Below are positions 8,474-18,968 of a stretch of 64,000 nt of DNA, piece after piece (within the stretch, counting starts at the first letter, position 1; the number at the start of each line of letters is the position of its first letter). The stretch covers positions 248,001 to 312,000 of the forward strand of contig JAENZE010000001.1 of the NCBI GenBank assembly GCA_016841425.1. Reading direction: 5' to 3'. Origin of the DNA: Syntrophomonas sp. Its GTDB lineage: Bacteria; Bacillota; Syntrophomonadia; Syntrophomonadales; Syntrophomonadaceae. The notes under the pieces were generated by a model. That model was not told the DNA's origin, searched no databases, and worked only from the letters and a program-made list of their open reading frames with translations. The position numbers were made by a program, and so were the translations under genes.

Positions 8474-11173
8474 ATGGATATAAAACTTACTATTAATGGT
8501 AAAGAGATAGAGGTGCCGCAGGGTACTATGCTGTTGGATGCCTGCCGTAAAGCGGGAGCAGATATCCCTACATTCTGCTACGATCCGGACCTGAAACTGG
8601 CCGGCTCCTGCCGGATGTGTGTGGTACAGCCCCAGGGATGGCGCAATCTGGTGGCCAGCTGTGTAACCCCGGCCCAAAATGGTATGGTTATAGATACCGA
8701 GAGCCCGGACGTAGTAGAAGCTAGAAAAGTAGTTTTAGAACTGATGCTGACCCGGCATAAACTTACCTGCCATACCTGTGAAAAAGATGGAGATTGCAAC
8801 CTGCAGGATTACTGTTATCGATATGGGGTGACTGAATCTCGCTTTGAAGGAAAAATCCATAATCTCTTCAAAGATGATTCCAACCCCTTTATTGAGAGGG
8901 ATTATGATAAATGCGTTATGTGTACCCGCTGTGTCAGGGCCTGTGAAGAAATTACCGGGGCCCGGGCCATCAATGTAATGGATCGCGGATACCATGCGCA
9001 TATAGCGACTGCTTTTGACGGTGAACTGGAAGACTCTCCCTGTGTATTCTGCGGCCAGTGTATAATGGTATGCCCGGTAGGGGCACTGACCAGCAAGATA
9101 GCAGCTGGGAAAGGTAAACCAGCCCAAAATGAAAAAGTGCTGACTACCTGTACCTACTGTGGTACGGGATGCACATTGGAACTAAATGTTAAGAATGACG
9201 AAATAGTCGGTGTGACCTCCAATAGAGATGCGGAATGGAGTCCGGTCAACAAAGGTGCCCTATGTGTTAAGGGACGTTTTGGCTGGGATTTTGTAAACTC
9301 CCCGGAAAGACTGACTACCCCGCTGATCAAAGAGAATGGTGAATTCCGTCCCGCTTCCTGGGATGAAGCTCTGGATCTGGCAGCTGAGAAAATAAACGGC
9401 ATCAAGGAAAAATACGGACCGGATTCACTGTCGATGTTTTCTTCAGCCAGGGTAACCAATGAAGAAAACTATCTAGCCCAGAAATTAATGAGAGCAGCAA
9501 TAGGTTCAAACAATGTGGACCATTGCGCCCGTCTCTGACACTCCGTTACTGTCGCCGGTCTGGGGGCAGCATTCGGAAGTGGTGCAATGACCAACTCCAT
9601 AAATGAACTGGAAAACGATGCTAAATGTGTTTTCTTGATAGGAACCAATACTACTGAAAACCATCCGGTTATAGGTTACAAAATCAGGCAGAATGTTTTG
9701 AAAAACGGAGCCAAATTGATAGTAGCCGACCCGCGTAGAATTGAACTGGCTGAACTGGCTGATGTATATCTGCCATTCAAACCGGGTACCGATGTAGCTC
9801 TCTTCAATGGCATGATGAATGTCATAATCAACGAAGGCCTGGCTGACCGGAAGTTCATAGAAAGCAGGACCGAAGGTTATGAAGCTATGGCTGAAGTAGT
9901 TGAGAAATATCCACCGGAAGTAGCGGCTGAGATATGCGGCGTTGATGCTGCAGATATCATCAAGGCAGCCCGCCTCTATGCCGAGTCAGAAGCTTCTTCA
10001 GTATGTTATGCTATGGGTCTTACCCAACATACTACTGGAACTGATAATGTTAAGAGCTGCTGCAACCTGGCTTTATTGACGGGTAACCTGGGTAAACCTG
10101 GAACCGGGGTTAATCCGCTGCGTGGTCAGAACAACGTGCAGGGTGCCTGCGATATGGGGGCACTGCCGGTCGTATTTACTGCCTACCAGGCAGTTACCAA
10201 TGATGAGGCCCGGGCAAAATTTGAAAAAGCCTGGGGAGTAACACTTTCAGGAGTAAATGGACTTACTCTGACCAAGACCATCAATAAAGCCTACGAAGGC
10301 GAAGTAAAAGGATTAATAGTCGTAGGTGAAAATCCTATGGTCAGTGATCCTGATCTGCATCATGTGGAAGAAGCACTTGATAAGCTAGACTTCCTTCTGG
10401 TCCAGGATATCTTCCTGACCGAAACAGCTAAGAAAGCCGATGTAGTCCTGCCCGGAGTCAGCTTTGCTGAGAAAGACGGAACCTTCAGCAATACTGAAAG
10501 AAGAGTGCAGAGAGTACGTAAAGCTATCAGCAATAAAGGTGATGCCAGGCAGGATTGGGAGATACTTTGTGATCTTTCCACCCGCTTAGGATATCCTATG
10601 TCCTATAATTCCCCGGAAGAAATTTTCGAAGAAATCAGGACCCTTACCCCATCCTACGCAGGTATGAATTATGCCCGCCTGGAAGGAACAGGTTTACCCT
10701 GGCCCTGTCCTGCCGAAGACCATCCGGGAACCCCAATTCTCCACAAAGAGAAATTCAATAGAGGGCTGGGGCTGTTCCACGCCATTGAGTATCTCGAACC
10801 AGCAGAAGTCATCAATGAAGAGTATCCTATTATTCTGACTACCGGACGCAGTTTGTATCATTATCACACTGGGACTATGACCAGAAAGGCTAAAGGCCTG
10901 GATGAACATATGCCGGAAAACGTGATACAGATAAATAGTGCACTGGCTAAAGCCAAGAATATAGTGGATGGGGAAATAGTCAAGGTGACTACCCGCAGAG
11001 GCAGCATTAAATTGAAAGCAGAGGTAATTGATGGTATACGTGAGAATGTGATATTTACTTATTTCCATTTTGCCGAAGCAGCTGCCAACGTCCTGACCAA
11101 TGCTGAGGTTTTGGATCCAGTAGCAGGAATTCCAGAATATAAAGTATCAGCAGCCCGATTGGAAAAGTTATAA
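8474..11173 (+). CDS. fdhA: Selenocysteine formate dehydrogenase catalytic subunit 1 (UGA read through at 9536-9538)
   Basis: One 899-residue gene interrupted by an in-frame TGA at 9536-9538 (residue 355). The TGA is preceded by VDHCARL and followed by HSVTVAGLGAAFGSG, the formate dehydrogenase active-site sequence where Sec or Cys coordinates Mo/W. Domains in order are an N-terminal [2Fe-2S], a His-Cys3 motif (HKLTCHTCEKDGDC), two [4Fe-4S] motifs (CVMCTRCVRAC, CVFCGQCIMVC), the CTYCGTGC cluster of the molybdopterin domain, then the bis-MGD-binding domains. A hairpin suitable for SelB lies just after the TGA. The enzyme catalyses formate/CO2 interconversion in the cytoplasm. The N-terminus substitutes for NuoG, so nuoE-nuoF-fdhA can form a complete NAD-linked complex. 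The ATG at 8474 follows GGAGGG. Confidence 0.95.
9536..9570 (+). promoter_or_regulatory. Bacterial SECIS hairpin of fdhA copy 1
   Basis: Directly after the UGA, CTGTCGCC (9549-9556) can pair with GGGGGCAG (9562-9569), closing the loop GGTCT (9557-9561). A GGUCU apical loop a short distance 3' of the UGA is the known SelB-binding form in Escherichia coli fdhF. The pairing includes a G-U and one mismatch. It marks the TGA as a selenocysteine codon and argues against a stop or sequencing error. Confidence 0.82.
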
Positions 11174-11295: not shown

Positions 11296-12519
11296 TTAAT
11301 TGAACTTGGCAGTGTAATCAGTCTTAAAATGTTGTAAAGTAGTTAGTACAGGGCTGGGAGCTGCCTGACCCAGACCACAAAGACATGCTTTACTCATTAC
11401 GGTCCCCAACCGGTTAAGCAGGTCCAGGTCTGCGGCAGTTCCCCGTCCACTGTAAATATTCTTTACCATTTCATGCATCCTCTTGGTACCTTCCCGACAG
11501 GGAGAACATTTACCGCAGGATTCATGTTCAAAGAATTTGGTAATCTGATTGATAACGTCTACCATATCTCTGCTTTCATCCATTACAAAGACCGCACCGG
11601 AACCCAGAGTTGCTCCAATAGCAGCCATGGAATCGAAGTCAATAGCTGTATCCAACAGGCTTTCAGGAATAAAACCACCAGATGTTCCGCCTATTTGCAC
11701 TGCTTTAAACTTTTTGCCGCCCGCTATGCCGCCGCCAAAATCAAATATAACCTGACGAATCGTAGTATCCGTTGGTACTTCAATAAAAGTACAATTAACT
11801 ACATCTCCGGTCAAAGTCATCAATTTGGTTCCGGGATAACTCTTGGCTCCTATGCCGGCGAACCAATCAGCACCCTTTTCTAGTATAAGCGGTATATTGG
11901 CAAAGGTTTCGACGTTGTTAACAATAGTAGGTTTACCCCACAAGCCGGTTACCGGTGGAAAAGGCGGCTTGAATCTGGGTTCTCCCCGGTGCCCTTCTAT
12001 GGATTCAATAAGGGCGCTTTCCTCGCCACAGACATAGGCACCAGCTCCCATACGGACTTCGATATCGAAATCTCCCAGCACACCTTTTGCTTTGGCTTGT
12101 TCTATAGCGGTATTGAGTTTTTCTACCACATAAGGATATTCACCCCGGCAGTAAATATAGCCTTTATTGGAGCCAATAGCATAACCACAAACAGCCATAC
12201 CTTCCAGAACACTCTGAGGATCATTTTCCATAATAAGCCTGTCTTTATAGGTGCCTGGTTCTCCTTCATCAGCATTACAGACTACGTACTTTTGATCAGA
12301 TGGAGTATTGTAAGAGAAACTCCATTTCATGCCAGCATTAAATCCTGCACCGCCGCGGCCTCTCAGCCCGGATTTTTGTACTTCTGCCATCAAGTCCTTC
12401 TGACTCATAGCCCGTGCTTTTTCGAGCCCTTTGTAGCCGCCCGCGCTGATATAATCGTCAATATTCAAAGGATCTATTTTTCCATAATTACGCATTAGTA
12501 TGCGCATTTCCTCGGCCAT
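11296..12519 (-). CDS. NuoF-like NADH/FMN subunit of formate dehydrogenase complex 2
   Basis: A 407-residue flavoprotein with the same layout as the product of 7232-8452. The glycine-rich motif GLRGRGGAGFNAG and the CNADEGEPGTYKDR loop lie near the N-terminus. SLBB follows, then the C-terminal [4Fe-4S] site SCGKCSPCREG plus CLCGLG. There is no extra ferredoxin tail. The ATG follows AAGGAGGGT closely. It is the last gene of a minus-strand operon (fdhA, molybdopterin-binding protein, moeA, nuoE, nuoF). The two NuoF copies differ throughout, so they are long-separated paralogs that probably serve distinct complexes. Confidence 0.94.
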   Translation of the reverse strand: MAEEMRILMRNYGKIDPLNIDDYISAGGYKGLEKARAMSQKDLMAEVQKSGLRGRGGAGFNAGMKWSFSYNTPSDQKYVVCNADEGEPGTYKDRLIMENDPQSVLEGMAVCGYAIGSNKGYIYCRGEYPYVVEKLNTAIEQAKAKGVLGDFDIEVRMGAGAYVCGEESALIESIEGHRGEPRFKPPFPPVTGLWGKPTIVNNVETFANIPLILEKGADWFAGIGAKSYPGTKLMTLTGDVVNCTFIEVPTDTTIRQVIFDFGGGIAGGKKFKAVQIGGTSGGFIPESLLDTAIDFDSMAAIGATLGSGAVFVMDESRDMVDVINQITKFFEHESCGKCSPCREGTKRMHEMVKNIYSGRGTAADLDLLNRLGTVMSKACLCGLGQAAPSPVLTTLQHFKTDYTAKFN

Positions 12520-12541: not shown

Positions 12542-12988
12542 TTACTTGTATTCAGCCAGGATTGTGCTTATATTTTCCGGAGTTAGATCTCCATAGGGTT
12601 TACTGTTAATAGTAATAACGGGAGTAGCCTGGCACTGGCCCACACACTCAGTAAATTCCAGAGTAAATAAGCCGTCTGCCGTGGTTTCTCCCATCTTAAT
12701 CCCCAGTTCTTTTTCCAGAGCAGACACTACCTGGGCTGCACCTGCTATATGGCAAGGTGCGCTTTCACAAATGCGAATAATATATTTACCACGTGTACCT
12801 ACCTGAAAATAAGAATAGAAGGTAGCTACCCCATAAGCTTTTGCTTTGGGAATATCAAATATCTGTGCTGCTGCATCAATAGCGTCCTCGGGTATATAGT
12901 TGAATTCCCGCTGCAGAGCATGATAGGCTTCTATAAGTCCTCCGGGAACTTCTTTATAAGCGCCGACTATTTCTTTATAGTCTGCCAT
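12542..12988 (-). CDS. NuoE-like [2Fe-2S] subunit of formate dehydrogenase complex 2
   Basis: A 148-residue thioredoxin-like [2Fe-2S] protein, the same length as the paralog at 6764-7210. Cluster cysteines appear as CESAPC and CVGQC. The start ATG has CAGGAGGTG upstream. The gene lies 22 bases before nuoF and about 40 bases after moeA, so it is co-transcribed with the second formate dehydrogenase. It relays electrons between NuoF and FdhA. Having nuoE and nuoF at the distal end of the operon, after cofactor genes, differs from the first operon, where they come first. Confidence 0.93.
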   Translation of the reverse strand: MADYKEIVGAYKEVPGGLIEAYHALQREFNYIPEDAIDAAAQIFDIPKAKAYGVATFYSYFQVGTRGKYIIRICESAPCHIAGAAQVVSALEKELGIKMGETTADGLFTLEFTECVGQCQATPVITINSKPYGDLTPENISTILAEYK

Positions 12989-13027: not shown

Positions 13028-14251
13028 TTAGATTTTAATAAAACGTTCATCTGCTTGCAGCAGAATCACGGCAACCTCTTGACCCGATTCCAGCGGTGTG
13101 TGTCCGGCTGGCATATCGATCAGAGCATTACAGTTGACCAGTGATTTCAGCATGCTGGGTTTCTGACCGGGCAGTACTGTTACCTCCCAACCTTCTGAGC
13201 TGTATCGGGCTCTGCCTCTGACCAAACGGTGTGTACGGGCTGTTTTGTTAAAGCCGTTGATACACCTGGCCGGTACCTTTATAAGTGGGGGGGATAAACC
13301 CTGCATATAACGCAGGGCAGGTACTACAAAAAGGTTGAAACCGACTGCACAAGCAGCTGGGTTTCCAGAAAGGGCAAATACCGGTTTGGATTGGTACATT
13401 GCCAGGCCATTATGGCTCCCTGGCTGAATATCTGTACCCCAGTAAATCATGCTGGCACCTGCTGATTCCAACAGTGTTTGTGCTTCGCTTTGCGTATCGG
13501 CATATGTCCCTCCAATTAGTATTATTAAGTCTGCCATCGATTGTAAATCATCCAGAGAACTTATCAATTCCTGTCCTTCAAGTTCCAAAGCCAGTTTATA
13601 AGCTGCTACCGTACCTCCCGCCTGGTTAATGAGGGCAGACAGCAGAGGGCTGTTACTATCTCTAGTCTGGCCTCGCTGTGGAGTTTGAGAACAAGGAATC
13701 ACATTTTTTGCCAGACCGAGAAGAGCCACTCGTGGGCGCTGGTACACGGATACTTCATTATACCCAAAAGCTGCCAGCAATCCGATATGACCTGCGGAAA
13801 GCAGCGTGTGAGGGTCTGCCAGTGTCTCGCCCTGTTTATAATCTTCTCCTGCCTGCTTGATATTGTTACCTGGTTTGATTTCTTCCAGTATGCTTATAGT
13901 GTTATTCTCCACCAGCACCTTTTCGTGCATAATTACTGCAAGGGCTCCTGATGGTAAATCGCCACCTGTATGTACTCCAAATGCCTGCCCTTGGCTGAGC
14001 TTCATTGGGATTCCTCCAGGCTGCATACAGGTTTCTAATGAAAAACAGCTGCCAGTTGGAGCTCTGTCATCACCCAGGGCATATCCATCAACTGCAGATT
14101 GAGGTACCGGGGGAAGATTTTCATCAGCCACCACTTCTTCAGCGAGAACTCGTCCGGCTGCCTGCATTATGGATACCCTCTCCGATGGAAGTTGACATAT
14201 ATTCTCCAGGATTAGCTGTTGAGCTTCTTCAATACACAGGTCTTTTTTCAT
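13028..14251 (-). CDS. moeA: Molybdopterin molybdenumtransferase MoeA
   Basis: A 407-residue MoeA. The N-terminal signature PVPQSAVDGYAL and GRVLAEEVVADENLP are conserved, the MoCF domain carries LIGGTYADTQSEAQ, and the C-terminal domain IV follows. MoeA inserts metal into adenylylated molybdopterin. The open frame extends 22 codons upstream of the chosen ATG. The start at 14251 has AGGGTG upstream and gives the canonical start MKKDLCIEEAQ. The canonical MoCF motif (GGvSvGdyD) is altered to GGTYADTQS, so substrate handling may differ. The gene sits inside a formate dehydrogenase operon together with a second MoCF-domain gene, which suggests a dedicated cofactor-insertion pair, perhaps for tungsten. 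Confidence 0.88.
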   Translation of the reverse strand: MKKDLCIEEAQQLILENICQLPSERVSIMQAAGRVLAEEVVADENLPPVPQSAVDGYALGDDRAPTGSCFSLETCMQPGGIPMKLSQGQAFGVHTGGDLPSGALAVIMHEKVLVENNTISILEEIKPGNNIKQAGEDYKQGETLADPHTLLSAGHIGLLAAFGYNEVSVYQRPRVALLGLAKNVIPCSQTPQRGQTRDSNSPLLSALINQAGGTVAAYKLALELEGQELISSLDDLQSMADLIILIGGTYADTQSEAQTLLESAGASMIYWGTDIQPGSHNGLAMYQSKPVFALSGNPAACAVGFNLFVVPALRYMQGLSPPLIKVPARCINGFNKTARTHRLVRGRARYSSEGWEVTVLPGQKPSMLKSLVNCNALIDMPAGHTPLESGQEVAVILLQADERFIKI

Positions 14252-14265
14252 AATGCACCCTGCCT

Positions 14266-15294
14266 TTATACGCTTGATTTGCCGAAAGGACAAAGCGGAT
14301 AATGACAGACCTTGCATTCTTCGCAGAGTCCGCCGTGTCCTAGTGCTACGATATCTGCACGATTAATTACCTCACCACAGAATAAGCGCGGTAACAGAAG
14401 ATCCAGCGTAGTTCTGCGGCTGAACAAAGCTCCTCCGGGCACCCCACATATTGGTACCGTACCCTGGTAGGCCATCATAAATTGTGACCCAGGTAATACC
14501 GGTGCGCCGTAAAAGATAACTTCAGCCCCGGAGTGCCTGATTCCTGAAGGAGTAGCGTCATCGGGATCTACCGACATACCGCCGGTGACCAGTATCAGCT
14601 GGGCTCCTTCGGAAATAAAGTTCTGAATCTCCATCGCTATTAAGTCAGCATCATCTGGTACGGTTACCTGGCTCATCCATCGACCGCCGAAAGGTATAAT
14701 TTTACGCCTTATTACCCTCCCAAAGCCGTCTCTGATTAAGCCGTTATTTACCTCAGAACCGGTGGTAATAACAGCTACCCATAAAGGTTGATAAGGTTTG
14801 ACGGTAATAAGTGAACAAGGTTCCTGGCATAATCTTTCCGCCTCCTGCAGCACATCACGATCAATTGCTACTGGGACTACTCGCGTGCCGGCTATGGTTT
14901 GGTCTTTGGAGACTGAACGGTTATTGTGCAAGGTAGCGAAAATTATATTGTCAATGTTATTTACCCAGCTCAATTGCTCAGTCTGTACCTTTATGACTCC
15001 ATCATATTCAGCCTTTAGATTTACCCGGCCCTGACTAGGGCGGGTAAAATATACTCCGTTTCCCGCCGCGGCTGTCGCAAGGCGCAGGGCCCCTTCGTCT
15101 TCATGAATTAAGTTATCATCAGGTTCCCAGACCATAATATGCTTTTTACCCAGTTCCAAAAAAAGAGGAATATCATCGGCTGTTATAACGTGGCCTCTGG
15201 AAAAAGCGCAGTATTTTTCGCTTTGAGGTACTATTCTGGTAATATCATGTCCAAGGGTCAAACCTACTGCATTCTCCACAGGAACTCTACGCAT
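14266..15294 (-). CDS. Molybdopterin-binding (MoCF-domain) protein with C-terminal cysteine cluster
   Basis: A 342-residue protein found in Firmicutes near molybdo-enzymes. The middle and C-terminal half contains a MoeA/MogA-type MoCF domain (VAVITTGSEVNNG, LILVTGGMSVDPDD, GVPGGALF). The N-terminal half is unlike full MoeA. The last 25 residues hold a C-x2-C-x2-C-x4-C motif (CEECKVCHYPLC), a possible metal or Fe-S site. The start overlaps the fdhA leader of the operon tightly: the fdhA stop is three bases upstream and GAGGTG lies within the fdhA end. The stop lies 14 bases before moeA. It probably binds or delivers the pterin cofactor to the second formate dehydrogenase. The exact reaction is unknown. 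Confidence 0.82.
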   Translation of the reverse strand: MRRVPVENAVGLTLGHDITRIVPQSEKYCAFSRGHVITADDIPLFLELGKKHIMVWEPDDNLIHEDEGALRLATAAAGNGVYFTRPSQGRVNLKAEYDGVIKVQTEQLSWVNNIDNIIFATLHNNRSVSKDQTIAGTRVVPVAIDRDVLQEAERLCQEPCSLITVKPYQPLWVAVITTGSEVNNGLIRDGFGRVIRRKIIPFGGRWMSQVTVPDDADLIAMEIQNFISEGAQLILVTGGMSVDPDDATPSGIRHSGAEVIFYGAPVLPGSQFMMAYQGTVPICGVPGGALFSRRTTLDLLLPRLFCGEVINRADIVALGHGGLCEECKVCHYPLCPFGKSSV

Positions 15295-15297
15295 ATT

Positions 15298-17988
15298 TTA
15301 CACCTCTACTTTGTCTATTTTCACCGCACATACTTTGTATTCACCAGTCCCGGTAATTGGATCCAGGACATGGGTAGTGACTTCATTAGTAGGTGTAGCA
15401 CTATGATGGAATGACATCCATATCATCCCCGGCATAACTCGATCGGTAACTTTTACTTCACTAGTTACCTGGCCACGCCTGGATGTTACTTTAACCTTGC
15501 TGCCTGATTGCAGACCCAGCTTTTCTGCATCCAGCGGGTTGACTTCAGCTAGTTCACGGTCCCACATGCTGTTGATACCCATGGAATAAGGGGTGGTAAC
15601 ATTGTAATGATATAGGATCCTTCCTGTTGACAGGAGGAATGGGTACTCTTCATCTGGCATCTCTCCAGGTGGAATATGGTCAGAGGGCTGGAAGCTGCCC
15701 AATCCGCGGGTGAATTTACCAGCATGCAGAAATGGTGTTCCTGGATGATCGCTGCTGGGGCAAGGCCAATGAAGCCCAACTTTATCAATGCGATCATAAT
15801 TAATACCAGTCATCGAAGGTGACAGGGAAGCCATTTCATCCCATATTTGTCCAGGATGATCATAGCTCATAGGGAAACCGACCCGAGTTGCCATCTGGCA
15901 TATGGTCTGCCAATTGGCTTGACCGGGGATGGGCTCAATGGCTTTACGTACCCGCTGTACCCGCCGCTCAGTACTGGTAAATGTACCATCACATTCTGCG
16001 AAACTAGCTGCAGGCAGTACAACATCGGCAAATACTGCGGTTTCAGTTAAAAACAGTTCCTGTACAACTAGAAAATCAAGTTTGTCCAGGGCAGCCTTAA
16101 TATGGTTAGCGTTAGGATCAGTTAATACCGGATTTTCACCTAGAATATACATGGCTTTTAGTTTGCCGGCATATGCTTCTTCAAACATTTCAGGAATCTT
16201 TAATCCCAGGTTTCCGGGCAGGGAAGCTCCCCAGGCTTTTTCAAATTTAGCCCTTATTTCGTCATTTGTAACCGCCTGATAAGCCGGGTAAACGTTGGGC
16301 AGGGCTCCCATGTCACAGGCTCCCTGTACATTGTTCTGGCCGCGTATCGGACATACCCCGGTACCGGGCCTGCCAACATGACCGGTAAGCATAGCTAGAT
16401 TGGCGATGCTCATAACGTTGCGGGTACCACAGATATGTTCCGTTATTCCCAGAGTATAGAATATCATAGCCTTGTCGGTAGTAGCATAAAGACGGGCTAC
16501 TGTATAGAGGTCTTCTACCGATATGCCAGTCAGTTCAGATACATATTCAGGATTATAGGCTTCTACAGTTTCCTTTAATGCTTCATAATTTTCTGTACGT
16601 TCAGCAACAAATTGCTTATCTTCCAGGCCTTCCTTGATTATGATACGCATCATACCATTTAATAGAGGTATATCAGTACCTGGATTATGTCTTAGCCAGT
16701 AATCAGCATCATCTACTAAATCAATCCGGCGGGGATCACAAACTACCATTTTACATCCTTTACGAGCTGCTTGACGCATTTTATAGCCAATAACCGGATG
16801 TGCTTCAGTAGTATTGGTGCCAATGAGCAGCATTAATTCTGCTTCATTAGTTATATCACTGATGGGATTAGTCATTGCGCCGCTACCAAAAGTGGTGGCC
16901 AGACCGGCCACGGTGGGCGCATGTCAGGTGCGGGCACAGTGGTCAACATTATTGGTTCCCATATAGGCGCGGGTAAATTTTTGTACCAGATAATTTTCTT
17001 CGTTGGTACAGCGAGCTGAACTGAGGGCTGCAAAGCTTTCTGGACCATACTCATTCTTAATTTCGTTAAAGCGAGCAGCTATCAGGTCAAAAGCTTCATC
17101 CCAGCTGGCTGGCTCAAATTGGCCATTTTTCTTAATTAACGGAGTAGTGAGACGTTTTTCATTATAAATGTAGTCCCAACCAAAACGGCCCTTAACACAT
17201 AGGCTGCGGCCATTTACAGGACTTTCCGGGTTGGAAAGCACTCCAATTACCTTCCCATCCTTTAGCGCCAGATCAAAATTACACCCGGTTCCACAGAAAG
17301 GACAGGTGGTTCTTACTCGATCTATTTCCCAGCGACGGGCCTGCCCTGCCATAGTCTTCTCAGTTAAGGCGCCGGTAGGGCAGACCGCTACACACTGGCC
17401 ACAGAAAACACAGTCTGACTCGGCATACGGCACATCACCAGCAGTGGTAGCTTTCCTATCAAAACCGCGATAGAGGTAGGATAGATTGTCCTGTCCGGTC
17501 ATTTCTTCACAGGCTCTGACACAGGCTCCACAGAGGATGCATTTATTCAGGTCTCTGATGATAAATGGGTTGCTGTCATCGCACTTGTAGTTGTGTTTTT
17601 CTCCTGCAAACGGGCTTTCTTTTATGCCGTACTGGTAGCAGTAATCTGCCAGTTTGCAATCGCCCAGTTTATCGCAGGTCATGCAATCCAGAGGATGGTT
17701 AGCAACCAGAAGCTCCAGGATGGTTCGCCGTGCTTCAATTACTGCAGGGGATTCAGTAAAGACTTCCATACCCGGCATTACTGGTGTAACGCACGAGGCT
17801 GGTAAAAGTCGATTACCTTTTACTTCTACCACGCAAAGGCGGCATGCGCCCAAAGCGCTTAAATCCGGGTCATAACAAAGACGTGGAATTTCTATCCCGG
17901 CAAGGTCTGCAGCCTGCATAATTGTGCTCCCCGCTGGAGCTCCTACCTCCTTCCCATTGATGTATAGATTTACCATTTCCACCAACAT
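15298..17988 (-). CDS. fdhA: Selenocysteine formate dehydrogenase catalytic subunit 2 (UGA read through at 16924-16926)
   Basis: One 896-residue gene spanning an in-frame TGA at complement 16926-16924, residue 355, the same position as in copy 1. Flanking residues are VDHCART before and HAPTVAGLATTFGSG after, the active-site sequence of formate dehydrogenase. Domains run N-terminal [2Fe-2S], His-Cys3 (HPLDCMTCDKLGDC), two [4Fe-4S] motifs (CILCGACVRAC, CVFCGQCVAVC), the molybdopterin-domain cluster CPFCGTGC, and bis-MGD domains to the end. AAGGAG lies only three bases from the ATG at 17988. TTG and GTG codons just downstream, or ATG at 17976, are alternative starts. It heads an operon with cofactor genes and nuoE-nuoF, and is preceded by two riboswitch-like units. 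Confidence 0.95.
16891..16926 (-). promoter_or_regulatory. Bacterial SECIS hairpin of fdhA copy 2
   Basis: On the minus strand, 12 codon bases after the UGA, GTGGCC and GGCCAC pair perfectly around the loop GGTCT (plus-strand arms 16895-16900 and 16906-16911, loop 16901-16905), with further pairing possible outside. The GGUCU loop is the same as in copy 1 and matches the known SelB-binding loop. This supports selenocysteine insertion at residue 355. Confidence 0.88.
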
Positions 17989-18023: not shown

Positions 18024-18054
18024 TAAAAACCTCCTGCCGGAACAGGAGGAGGTT
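18024..18054 (-). terminator. Hairpin terminator between proximal riboswitch and fdhA copy 2
   Basis: On the minus strand CCTCCTG and CAGGAGG pair around a six-base loop (plus arms 18030-18036 and 18043-18049), followed by a run of five U. It lies about 36 bases before fdhA and about 145 bases after the proximal aptamer-like core. That is the usual place for the expression platform of a transcription-attenuating riboswitch. Confidence 0.75.
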
Positions 18055-18194
18055 TACACTAGTTCATGGCAAATCATGAACAATTGTTATATTCAAACGC
18101 ACGCTCCCCCTTGCCCATGACCATTTAGCGGTGCAGAATAAACAAATCCACACCTGCCATAACCCGCGTTGCAGGCAACGCAAATAGATCTCAC

Positions 18195-18300
18195 AGGCCC
18201 ATGACTCCTTTCCAAGTAAGGGAGGCAAACCCGTTTCCAGATTTACCGTACCGGCTATTAACCGTGTCGGCTAAGTCCCCATGACCGAAGTTTTAGGTGA
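18195..18300 (-). ncRNA. Proximal Moco/Tuco-type riboswitch candidate upstream of fdhA copy 2
   Basis: Read on the minus strand, this unit contains CTTAGC, then ATCTGGAAACGG, TGCCTCCC and TTGGAAAGGAGT in order. The same ordered set recurs about 290 bases upstream. The blocks resemble what I remember of the molybdenum/tungsten cofactor RNA motif, and the gene it precedes encodes a Mo/W-pterin enzyme followed by moeA. I cannot run a covariance model, so the class name is a recognition from memory. The repeated conserved core itself is directly visible. A hairpin with a U-run follows at 18024-18054. Confidence 0.62.
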
Positions 18301-18396
18301 AATAGCTTTGGAGCAAAGCTTTTGAAAAATATTTAATTATACTTAATTAATTCTTTGAACATTAGCAAGCTGCTGGGAAAATATTCCCGGCCTAAA

Positions 18397-18436
18397 TTAA
18401 CAAAGACCTCCTGCCTGAACAGGAGGTCTTTGTTAA
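18397..18436 (-). terminator. Long perfect hairpin after the distal riboswitch candidate
   Basis: A 17-bp perfect stem with a six-base loop has plus arms at 18397-18413 and 18420-18436 and a core CCTCCTG/CAGGAGG shared with the hairpin at 18024-18054. Its minus-strand 3' flank is U-rich but interrupted (TTAATTTAGG), so termination may be partial. It follows the distal aptamer-like core by about 50 bases. Confidence 0.65.
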
Positions 18437-18487
18437 CTAAAATACATGGCTAGTAACTAGCTTAAATCACATATCAGTAGCTAAAAC

Positions 18488-18590
18488 CTATACTCCTTTC
18501 CAAACACGGGAGGCAGAACCGTTTCCAGATCCACCCAAAGGCTTAAACATCATAGCTAAGACTTTAGATGCTGAAGCTCGGAGATTTAAT
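18488..18590 (-). ncRNA. Distal Moco/Tuco-type riboswitch candidate
   Basis: On the minus strand this unit carries CTCCGAGC, CTTAGC, GGATCTGGAAACGG, TGCCTCCC and TTGGAAAGGAGT, the same ordered blocks as the unit at 18195-18300. CTCC at the 5' end can pair with GGAG at the 3' end to close the element. It lies downstream of the fdhD remnant and upstream of the proximal unit, each with its own hairpin. Two full units in series would give a steeper or two-signal response. Class assignment is from motif memory. Confidence 0.62.
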
Positions 18591-18752
18591 ATTCTATTTT
18601 CACATTAACTAATTCTACACCCGGTAGTAATTTACCTGCTAAAATTACAATAAATTTTAAAAAATCCTATAGTCATATAGGCAGCATCTGCCATTATATT
18701 CCATAACAATCTATAGTCTTGAAAATCATTCCCCGGAAATGGGATGTACAAG

Positions 18753-18968
18753 CTATACAATTATGCGTTCGGGGTGAGTATAAACATTAAAGCGACTGCC
18801 CCGGGCAAATCCCACCATAGTAATTTTCAATCGTTCAGCCCATTCAACGGCTTGCAGGGTTGGGGCAGAACGGGAAAGAATCAAAGGTATCCCATTTTGC
18901 GCTGCTTTGGCTAGGATTTCAATGGAAATCCTGCCGCTTAAGACCAGACATTTATCAAATAAGGTTAT
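18753..18968 (-). pseudogene. fdhD: fdhD remnant, 5' truncated
   Basis: About 70 codons on the minus strand read FDKCLVLSGRIS, then SRSAPTLQAVEWAE, GFARGSRFNVYTHPER and a stop at 18753-18755. This is the C-terminal quarter of FdhD, the sulfurtransferase-like chaperone that activates formate dehydrogenase. The frame closes with a stop codon just upstream (18969-18971) and there is no start, so roughly the first 180 residues are missing. It lies upstream of the second formate dehydrogenase operon and points the same way, suggesting the operon once began with fdhD. An intact copy elsewhere in the genome would be expected. Confidence 0.85.

Follow-up and report, generated by a model that had tools for sequence, protein, structure and literature searches.

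Organization of the leader and the operon

The window analysed here is a 64,000-nucleotide stretch of a Syntrophomonas sp. genome. On its minus strand, from 18595 to 18025, two RF01055 aptamers (U1 and U2) lie ahead of a formate dehydrogenase operon. A terminator-like hairpin containing CCTCCTG...CAGGAGG, with a CCUCC/GGAGG core, lies 3' of each unit; the original prediction had noted this shared core, and it is seen in the sequence.

18477..18595, minus strand: U1, RF01055 aptamer without P3 (proposed Tuco class); cmscan, 86.2 bits
18397..18436, minus strand: T1, long terminator-like hairpin 3' of U1 with CCUCC in its 5' arm; from the sequence
18189..18329, minus strand: U2, RF01055 aptamer with P3 (proposed Moco class) and conserved 5' flank; cmscan, 65.6 bits, and subfamily model R2
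18310..18329, minus strand: segment 1, 5' flank of the U2 aptamer plus P1 5' strand; partner is the P1 3' strand or the island
18203..18211, minus strand: segment 2, P1 3' strand of U2, AAAGGAGTC
18092..18110, minus strand: segment 3, conserved island, GGGGGAGCGTGCGTTTGAA; identity and pairing over 17 leaders
18025..18055, minus strand: T2, predicted intrinsic terminator with U-tract; 5' arm (segment 4) AAACCTCCTCCTG, 3' arm (segment 5) GCAGGAGG; terminator scan, kept in orthologues
15298..17988, minus strand: fdhA copy 2, formate dehydrogenase alpha; in-frame TGA at 16926-16924 (selenocysteine)
14266..15294, minus strand: MoeA-like molybdopterin-binding protein; Pfam MoCF_biosynth
13028..14317, minus strand: moeA; Pfam MoeA_N, MoCF_biosynth, MoeA_C
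12542..12988, minus strand: nuoE-like subunit
11296..12519, minus strand: nuoF-like subunit

The assignment of both units to the Moco/Tuco riboswitch family was confirmed by cmscan, which matched RF01055 to U1 at 18477-18595(-) (86.2 bits, E=1.4e-19) and to U2 at 18189-18325(-) (65.6 bits, E=1.5e-13). As both scores are far above the gathering score of 36, a chance match is excluded. The tandem arrangement on the minus strand, with units about 290 nt apart, was likewise borne out. Both units contain GAAA, the sequence of the tetraloop that caps P4 in the family; the receptor-like bulge in P2 was judged by eye. The location upstream of fdhA, the MoeA-like gene and moeA is that of a family found ahead of genes for molybdenum and tungsten cofactors and their enzymes, and the Pfam domains and operon content agree with the fdhA plus moeA target proposed at the outset. 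Three of the ordered blocks said to be shared by the units, ATCTGGAAACGG, TGCCTCCC and TTGGAAAGGAGT, are each found once per unit. The remaining one, CTTAGC, was rejected on alignment: it occupies non-homologous positions, the U1 copy lying in the P2 loop region and the U2 copy in the P2 3' strand.

The U1 aptamer is conserved in five Syntrophomonas species, and each of the five orthologous leaders has a T1 hairpin, whose stem shows compensatory pairs. T2 was detected by a consensus terminator scan. T1, with its broken U-tract, was not flagged in that scan because part of its U-rich 3' side sits inside the stem.

The window holds two paralogous formate dehydrogenase alpha genes arranged tail to tail, 8474-11173(+) and 17988-15298(-). 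Each reading frame is interrupted once, by an in-frame TGA at the active site (selenocysteine), and RF01055 units occur at copy 2 only. Just upstream of U1, 18753-18884(-) encodes a 43-aa C-terminal remnant resembling FdhD; a full-length 254-aa ORF occupies this place in the orthologous locus L093. Also upstream of U1, at about 18650-18610, the block TTTTAGCAGGTAAATTA is partly conserved in all five species and is possibly a promoter or regulator site.

Two structural classes of aptamer

The alignment shows that the P3 stem is absent from U1 and its four orthologues, as in Tuco-type RNAs, and present in U2, as in Moco-type RNAs. Compensatory changes are found in U2 both in P3 and in an extended P1. 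J1/2 is longer in U2 (CUCC-AAAGC) than in U1, as in most U2-type members, and the gap between aptamer and hairpin is about 40 nt for U1 and about 130 nt for U2. A model of U2-type aptamers, R2, gives its members 130-172 bits, and no other RF01055 unit exceeds 79; the U2-type aptamers therefore form a discrete subfamily. Thus, the suggestion of a duplicated aptamer-plus-terminator module fails, as the units differ in P3 status, platform length and subfamily score. A pseudo-cooperative tandem, in which both units answer to the same ligand, requires units of one class, and here U1 lacks P3 and U2 has it.

Seventeen distinct U2-type leaders were examined, from Syntrophomonadaceae, Desulfoscipio, Desulfosporosinus and other relatives. 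Wherever the gene 3' of the unit was readable, it encodes a formate dehydrogenase or a molybdopterin oxidoreductase related to it; the exception is L204, where fdhA begins but soon meets a stop codon.

Distribution and history of the mixed leader

A survey of 21 genomes gave 233 RF01055 matches and 32 tandem clusters. The window's genome has 13 units above the cut-off and its relatives have up to 19. Classed by match length, five of the 32 clusters combine short (P3-lacking) with long (P3-bearing) units, and these five are the orthologous Syntrophomonas fdh leaders only. Because units with a long P2 loop (L098, L104 and L122:64-191) are misclassed when length is the only criterion, P3 status was checked by alignment at the fdh loci and in the window's own genome, and at the mixed fdh loci it was verified; a 251-nt match in G025 is not classable by length. 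None of the U2-type units outside the five mixed loci is preceded by a P3-lacking unit. No RF01055 unit was found at the formate dehydrogenase orthologues of mostly deltaproteobacterial origin that served as a negative control.

In the FdhA tree a single clade (SH-aLRT 100) holds the five mixed loci and is nested among formate dehydrogenases that have P3-lacking leaders together with moeA genes. Of the six loci with a U2-type unit only, four fall in a separate clade and the other two in Desulfoscipio. This placement, together with the clade of five, indicates that the mixed leader probably arose once, by the joining of a P3-lacking leader to a U2-type one, and was then kept in five species. 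One of the mixed leaders, L094, precedes an operon in which moeA is missing between fdhA and nuoE.

The same history could have left U1 as a decaying remnant of the older P3-lacking leader, with little present effect since the U2-type leader was acquired. The position of the mixed clade inside the P3-lacking formate dehydrogenases would suit such a relic, as would the departure of T1 from a textbook terminator. However, the U1 aptamer and the T1 stem have been kept in five species despite diverging spacers, and we consider this reading quite improbable.

The survey also returned clusters of extreme size: five units split three to two between the strands (G003:C21:6509-8237), five units in tandem (L118:882-1913), and four units with two divergent ones (L122:2870-4147). 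In L012, a degenerate third RF01055-like copy lies between two intact ones, matched at about 8897 and about 9382, before an ApbE-like gene. Clostridial-type formate dehydrogenase operons occur at L121 and L123 in metagenome-assembled genomes labelled Methylobacillus and Euryarchaeota, labels that probably reflect binning contamination.

A conserved island and the predicted polarity of U2

About 100 nt downstream of the U2 aptamer, and ahead of T2, lies an island whose pairwise identity over the 17 leaders is 0.80; the linkers on its two sides reach 0.50 and 0.41. In 16 of the 17 leaders the island is the top pairing partner of segment 1 (-14 to -19 kcal/mol), and the resulting helix is mutually exclusive with P1. 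The pairing is nearly invariant, with no covariation in this helix across the 17 leaders. The G-rich head of the island is also complementary to the 5' arm of T2, and a head and an arm from one leader fit each other better than those from different leaders, none of 5000 permutations being as good, in a permutation scheme that ignores relatedness. Since the z-scores of segment 1 pairing against shuffled sequences are mostly modest for individual leaders, reliance was placed on conserved position and on the cross-leader tests. Conservation of the island for a hairpin of its own, GCAUUUGAAUGC, was considered and rejected, as this hairpin is possible in several U2-only leaders and absent in all five mixed ones.

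Partition-function folds along the growing transcript showed that forcing P1 to form makes T2 appear later or less in all five mixed loci. The polarity score of U2-type units was never negative in 16 leaders, being above 0.05 in 12 and near zero in four, and shuffling of the island lowered or reversed it in all five mixed loci. U2 is therefore predicted to be a transcriptional ON switch in which P1 formation prevents termination, the sign following from the ability of the island to engage either the 5' flank of the aptamer or the 5' arm of T2.

Predicted polarity of U1

The U1 part of the leader contains no island. In its unbound-state fold the GGAG strand is paired with the 5' arm of T1. Forcing P1 frees T1, which forms sooner in the mixed loci, with a weak effect for U1 of L093. 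Among 55 other RF01055 units, folding gave OFF for 47 and ON for three. U1 is thus predicted to be an OFF switch of the usual polarity. OFF is the default outcome, because forcing P1 removes by construction a competitor for the CCUCC arms, and for this reason the OFF result for U1 is weaker evidence than the ON result for U2. All polarities derive from equilibrium folding energies only, and once fully transcribed the terminators were formed in both states in most leaders.

The prevalence of the OFF sign bears on a reading of the leader as two OFF switches in series, in which either cofactor would halt transcription (a NOR gate, or steeper feedback if the ligand is the same). The OFF sign is proven for E. 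coli moaA (PMC2408646) and predicted for most units surveyed, homogeneous tandems are common, and the P1 3' strand of U2 can itself pair with the T2 arm. Feedback by the finished cofactor would also be ordinary, as the operon includes moeA. Against this, U1 and U2 belong to different classes, and the polarity of U2-type units is never negative and depends on the island in the five mixed loci. We regard the series of OFF switches as rather unlikely. Tight cofactor gating by two like units, as originally put forward, is likewise the less likely reading, because the classes differ and folding predicts opposite effects on termination.

A proposed gate for molybdenum and tungsten

The leader may instead comprise two complete, independent transcription-control modules of opposite sign. 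Of the readings considered this has the most support, although we think that it could go either way; under the P3 rule the two modules would make up a 'Mo AND NOT W' gate. The present analysis shows aptamer family and class, hairpins, conservation, and complementarity that is conserved or co-varies; the polarities come from folding energies, and ligands and metal specificity from the literature. An 'A AND NOT B' gate calls for platforms of opposite sign, which folding predicts in five species, and for two different ligands.

In this model, ligand binding to U1 would let P1 sequester the GGAG strand, leaving the CCUCC arm free, so that T1 would form and transcription would stop. Without ligand, the 5' flank and P1 5' strand of U2 would pair with the island, and T2 would be free to form. 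With ligand bound, P1 of U2 would form and release the island, which would capture the T2 5' arm and allow transcription to continue. If P3-lacking RNAs sense the tungsten cofactor and P3-bearing RNAs the molybdenum cofactor, the operon would be on only when the molybdenum cofactor is present and the tungsten cofactor is scarce. The earlier idea of separate Mo and W sensing survives in this form, with the units being two structural RF01055 classes. A further reading, which we hold less likely than not, extends the proposal: a natural RNA gate of a tungsten-cofactor OFF switch and then a molybdenum-cofactor ON switch would select the FDH/MoeA operon according to the metal in the cofactor, and U2 would found an activating Moco subfamily with a long-range strand-exchange platform.

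Genome context bears on the metal assignment in both directions. A TupA-type tungstate transporter gene behind a P3-lacking unit fits tungsten sensing, while a modA-type transporter behind P3-lacking units in the window's genome argues against the P3 metal rule. P3-bearing units in that genome precede genes for SLH-domain surface proteins. Two AOR-family genes suggest that the host uses tungsten. In L017 (G000:C25:51040-51160) a P3-lacking unit lies ahead of hypA/hypB-like genes and a NiFe hydrogenase small subunit gene, an arrangement that is a possible link of cofactor supply to the choice between hydrogen and formate.

A gate in series presupposes one transcript through both units. Were there two promoters, one upstream of U1 and one between T1 and U2, each unit would govern its own transcripts, and there would therefore be no series gate. 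All five mixed leaders carry a -10-like hexamer about 23 nt before the CTCC of U2, with a fair -35 in L094, and U2-only leaders require a promoter just upstream of U2. Conservation of a -35 was not found in the five mixed leaders, however, and the equivalent position in U2-only leaders is not promoter-like. Two promoters thus appear unlikely.

Significance and comparison with known systems

The assignment of P3-lacking RNAs to the tungsten cofactor and of P3-bearing RNAs to the molybdenum cofactor was proposed in 2008 from correlation (PMC2408646), and P3-based discrimination of the two metals has rested on genome correlations since. Deletion of P3 from the E. coli RNA abolished regulation and did not switch specificity (PMC2408646), and the cofactors were described in 2008 as too unstable for ordinary binding assays (PMC2408646). 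A mixed leader, with one unit per class, a terminator for each and opposite predicted signs, could let a single RNA report Mo versus W discrimination in one cell. The readout would be how transcripts divide between those stopped at T1, those stopped at T2 and the full-length form in cells grown with Mo only, with W only or with a mixture of the two. Formate transfer by syntrophs depends on Mo/W enzymes, and the leader would show how isoenzyme choice may follow metal supply.

S. wolfei has at least 15 RF01055 RNAs (PMC2408646). Tandem and triple RF01055 arrangements, including those of S. wolfei and Geobacter metallireducens, were reported earlier (PMC2408646; PMC9481103), so such tandems are not new as such; a 2022 survey gave the Moco and Wco tandems as same-ligand sets (PMC9481103). 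'A AND NOT B' RNA gates are also known (PMC9481103, PMC5912903). Among the open-licence papers searched, we found none that describes an RF01055 tandem of mixed class, a Moco riboswitch of the ON type or a platform based on such an island.

The P3-bearing Moco RNA of E. coli moaA shares with U2 its fold, P3 and Mo-enzyme targets; moaA carries a translational OFF switch, whereas U2 is a predicted transcriptional ON switch with a long-range island (PMC2408646). Tuco-type P3-lacking RNAs combine an aptamer with a terminator platform, as U1 does; U1 stands apart in having a unit of the other class downstream (PMC2408646). The S. wolfei and G. metallireducens tandems and the Moco/Wco sets likewise place several complete RF01055 riboswitches in series (PMC2408646; PMC9481103), but the S. 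wolfei triple is entirely P3-lacking, in contrast to the mixed Syntrophomonas fdh leader described here. The ZTP/THF-I and Na+/c-di-AMP tandems (PMC9481103) place an ON switch and an OFF switch ahead of a single operon, the logic predicted here; they join unrelated aptamer classes, whereas U1 and U2 are sub-classes of one family whose putative ligands differ in metal only.
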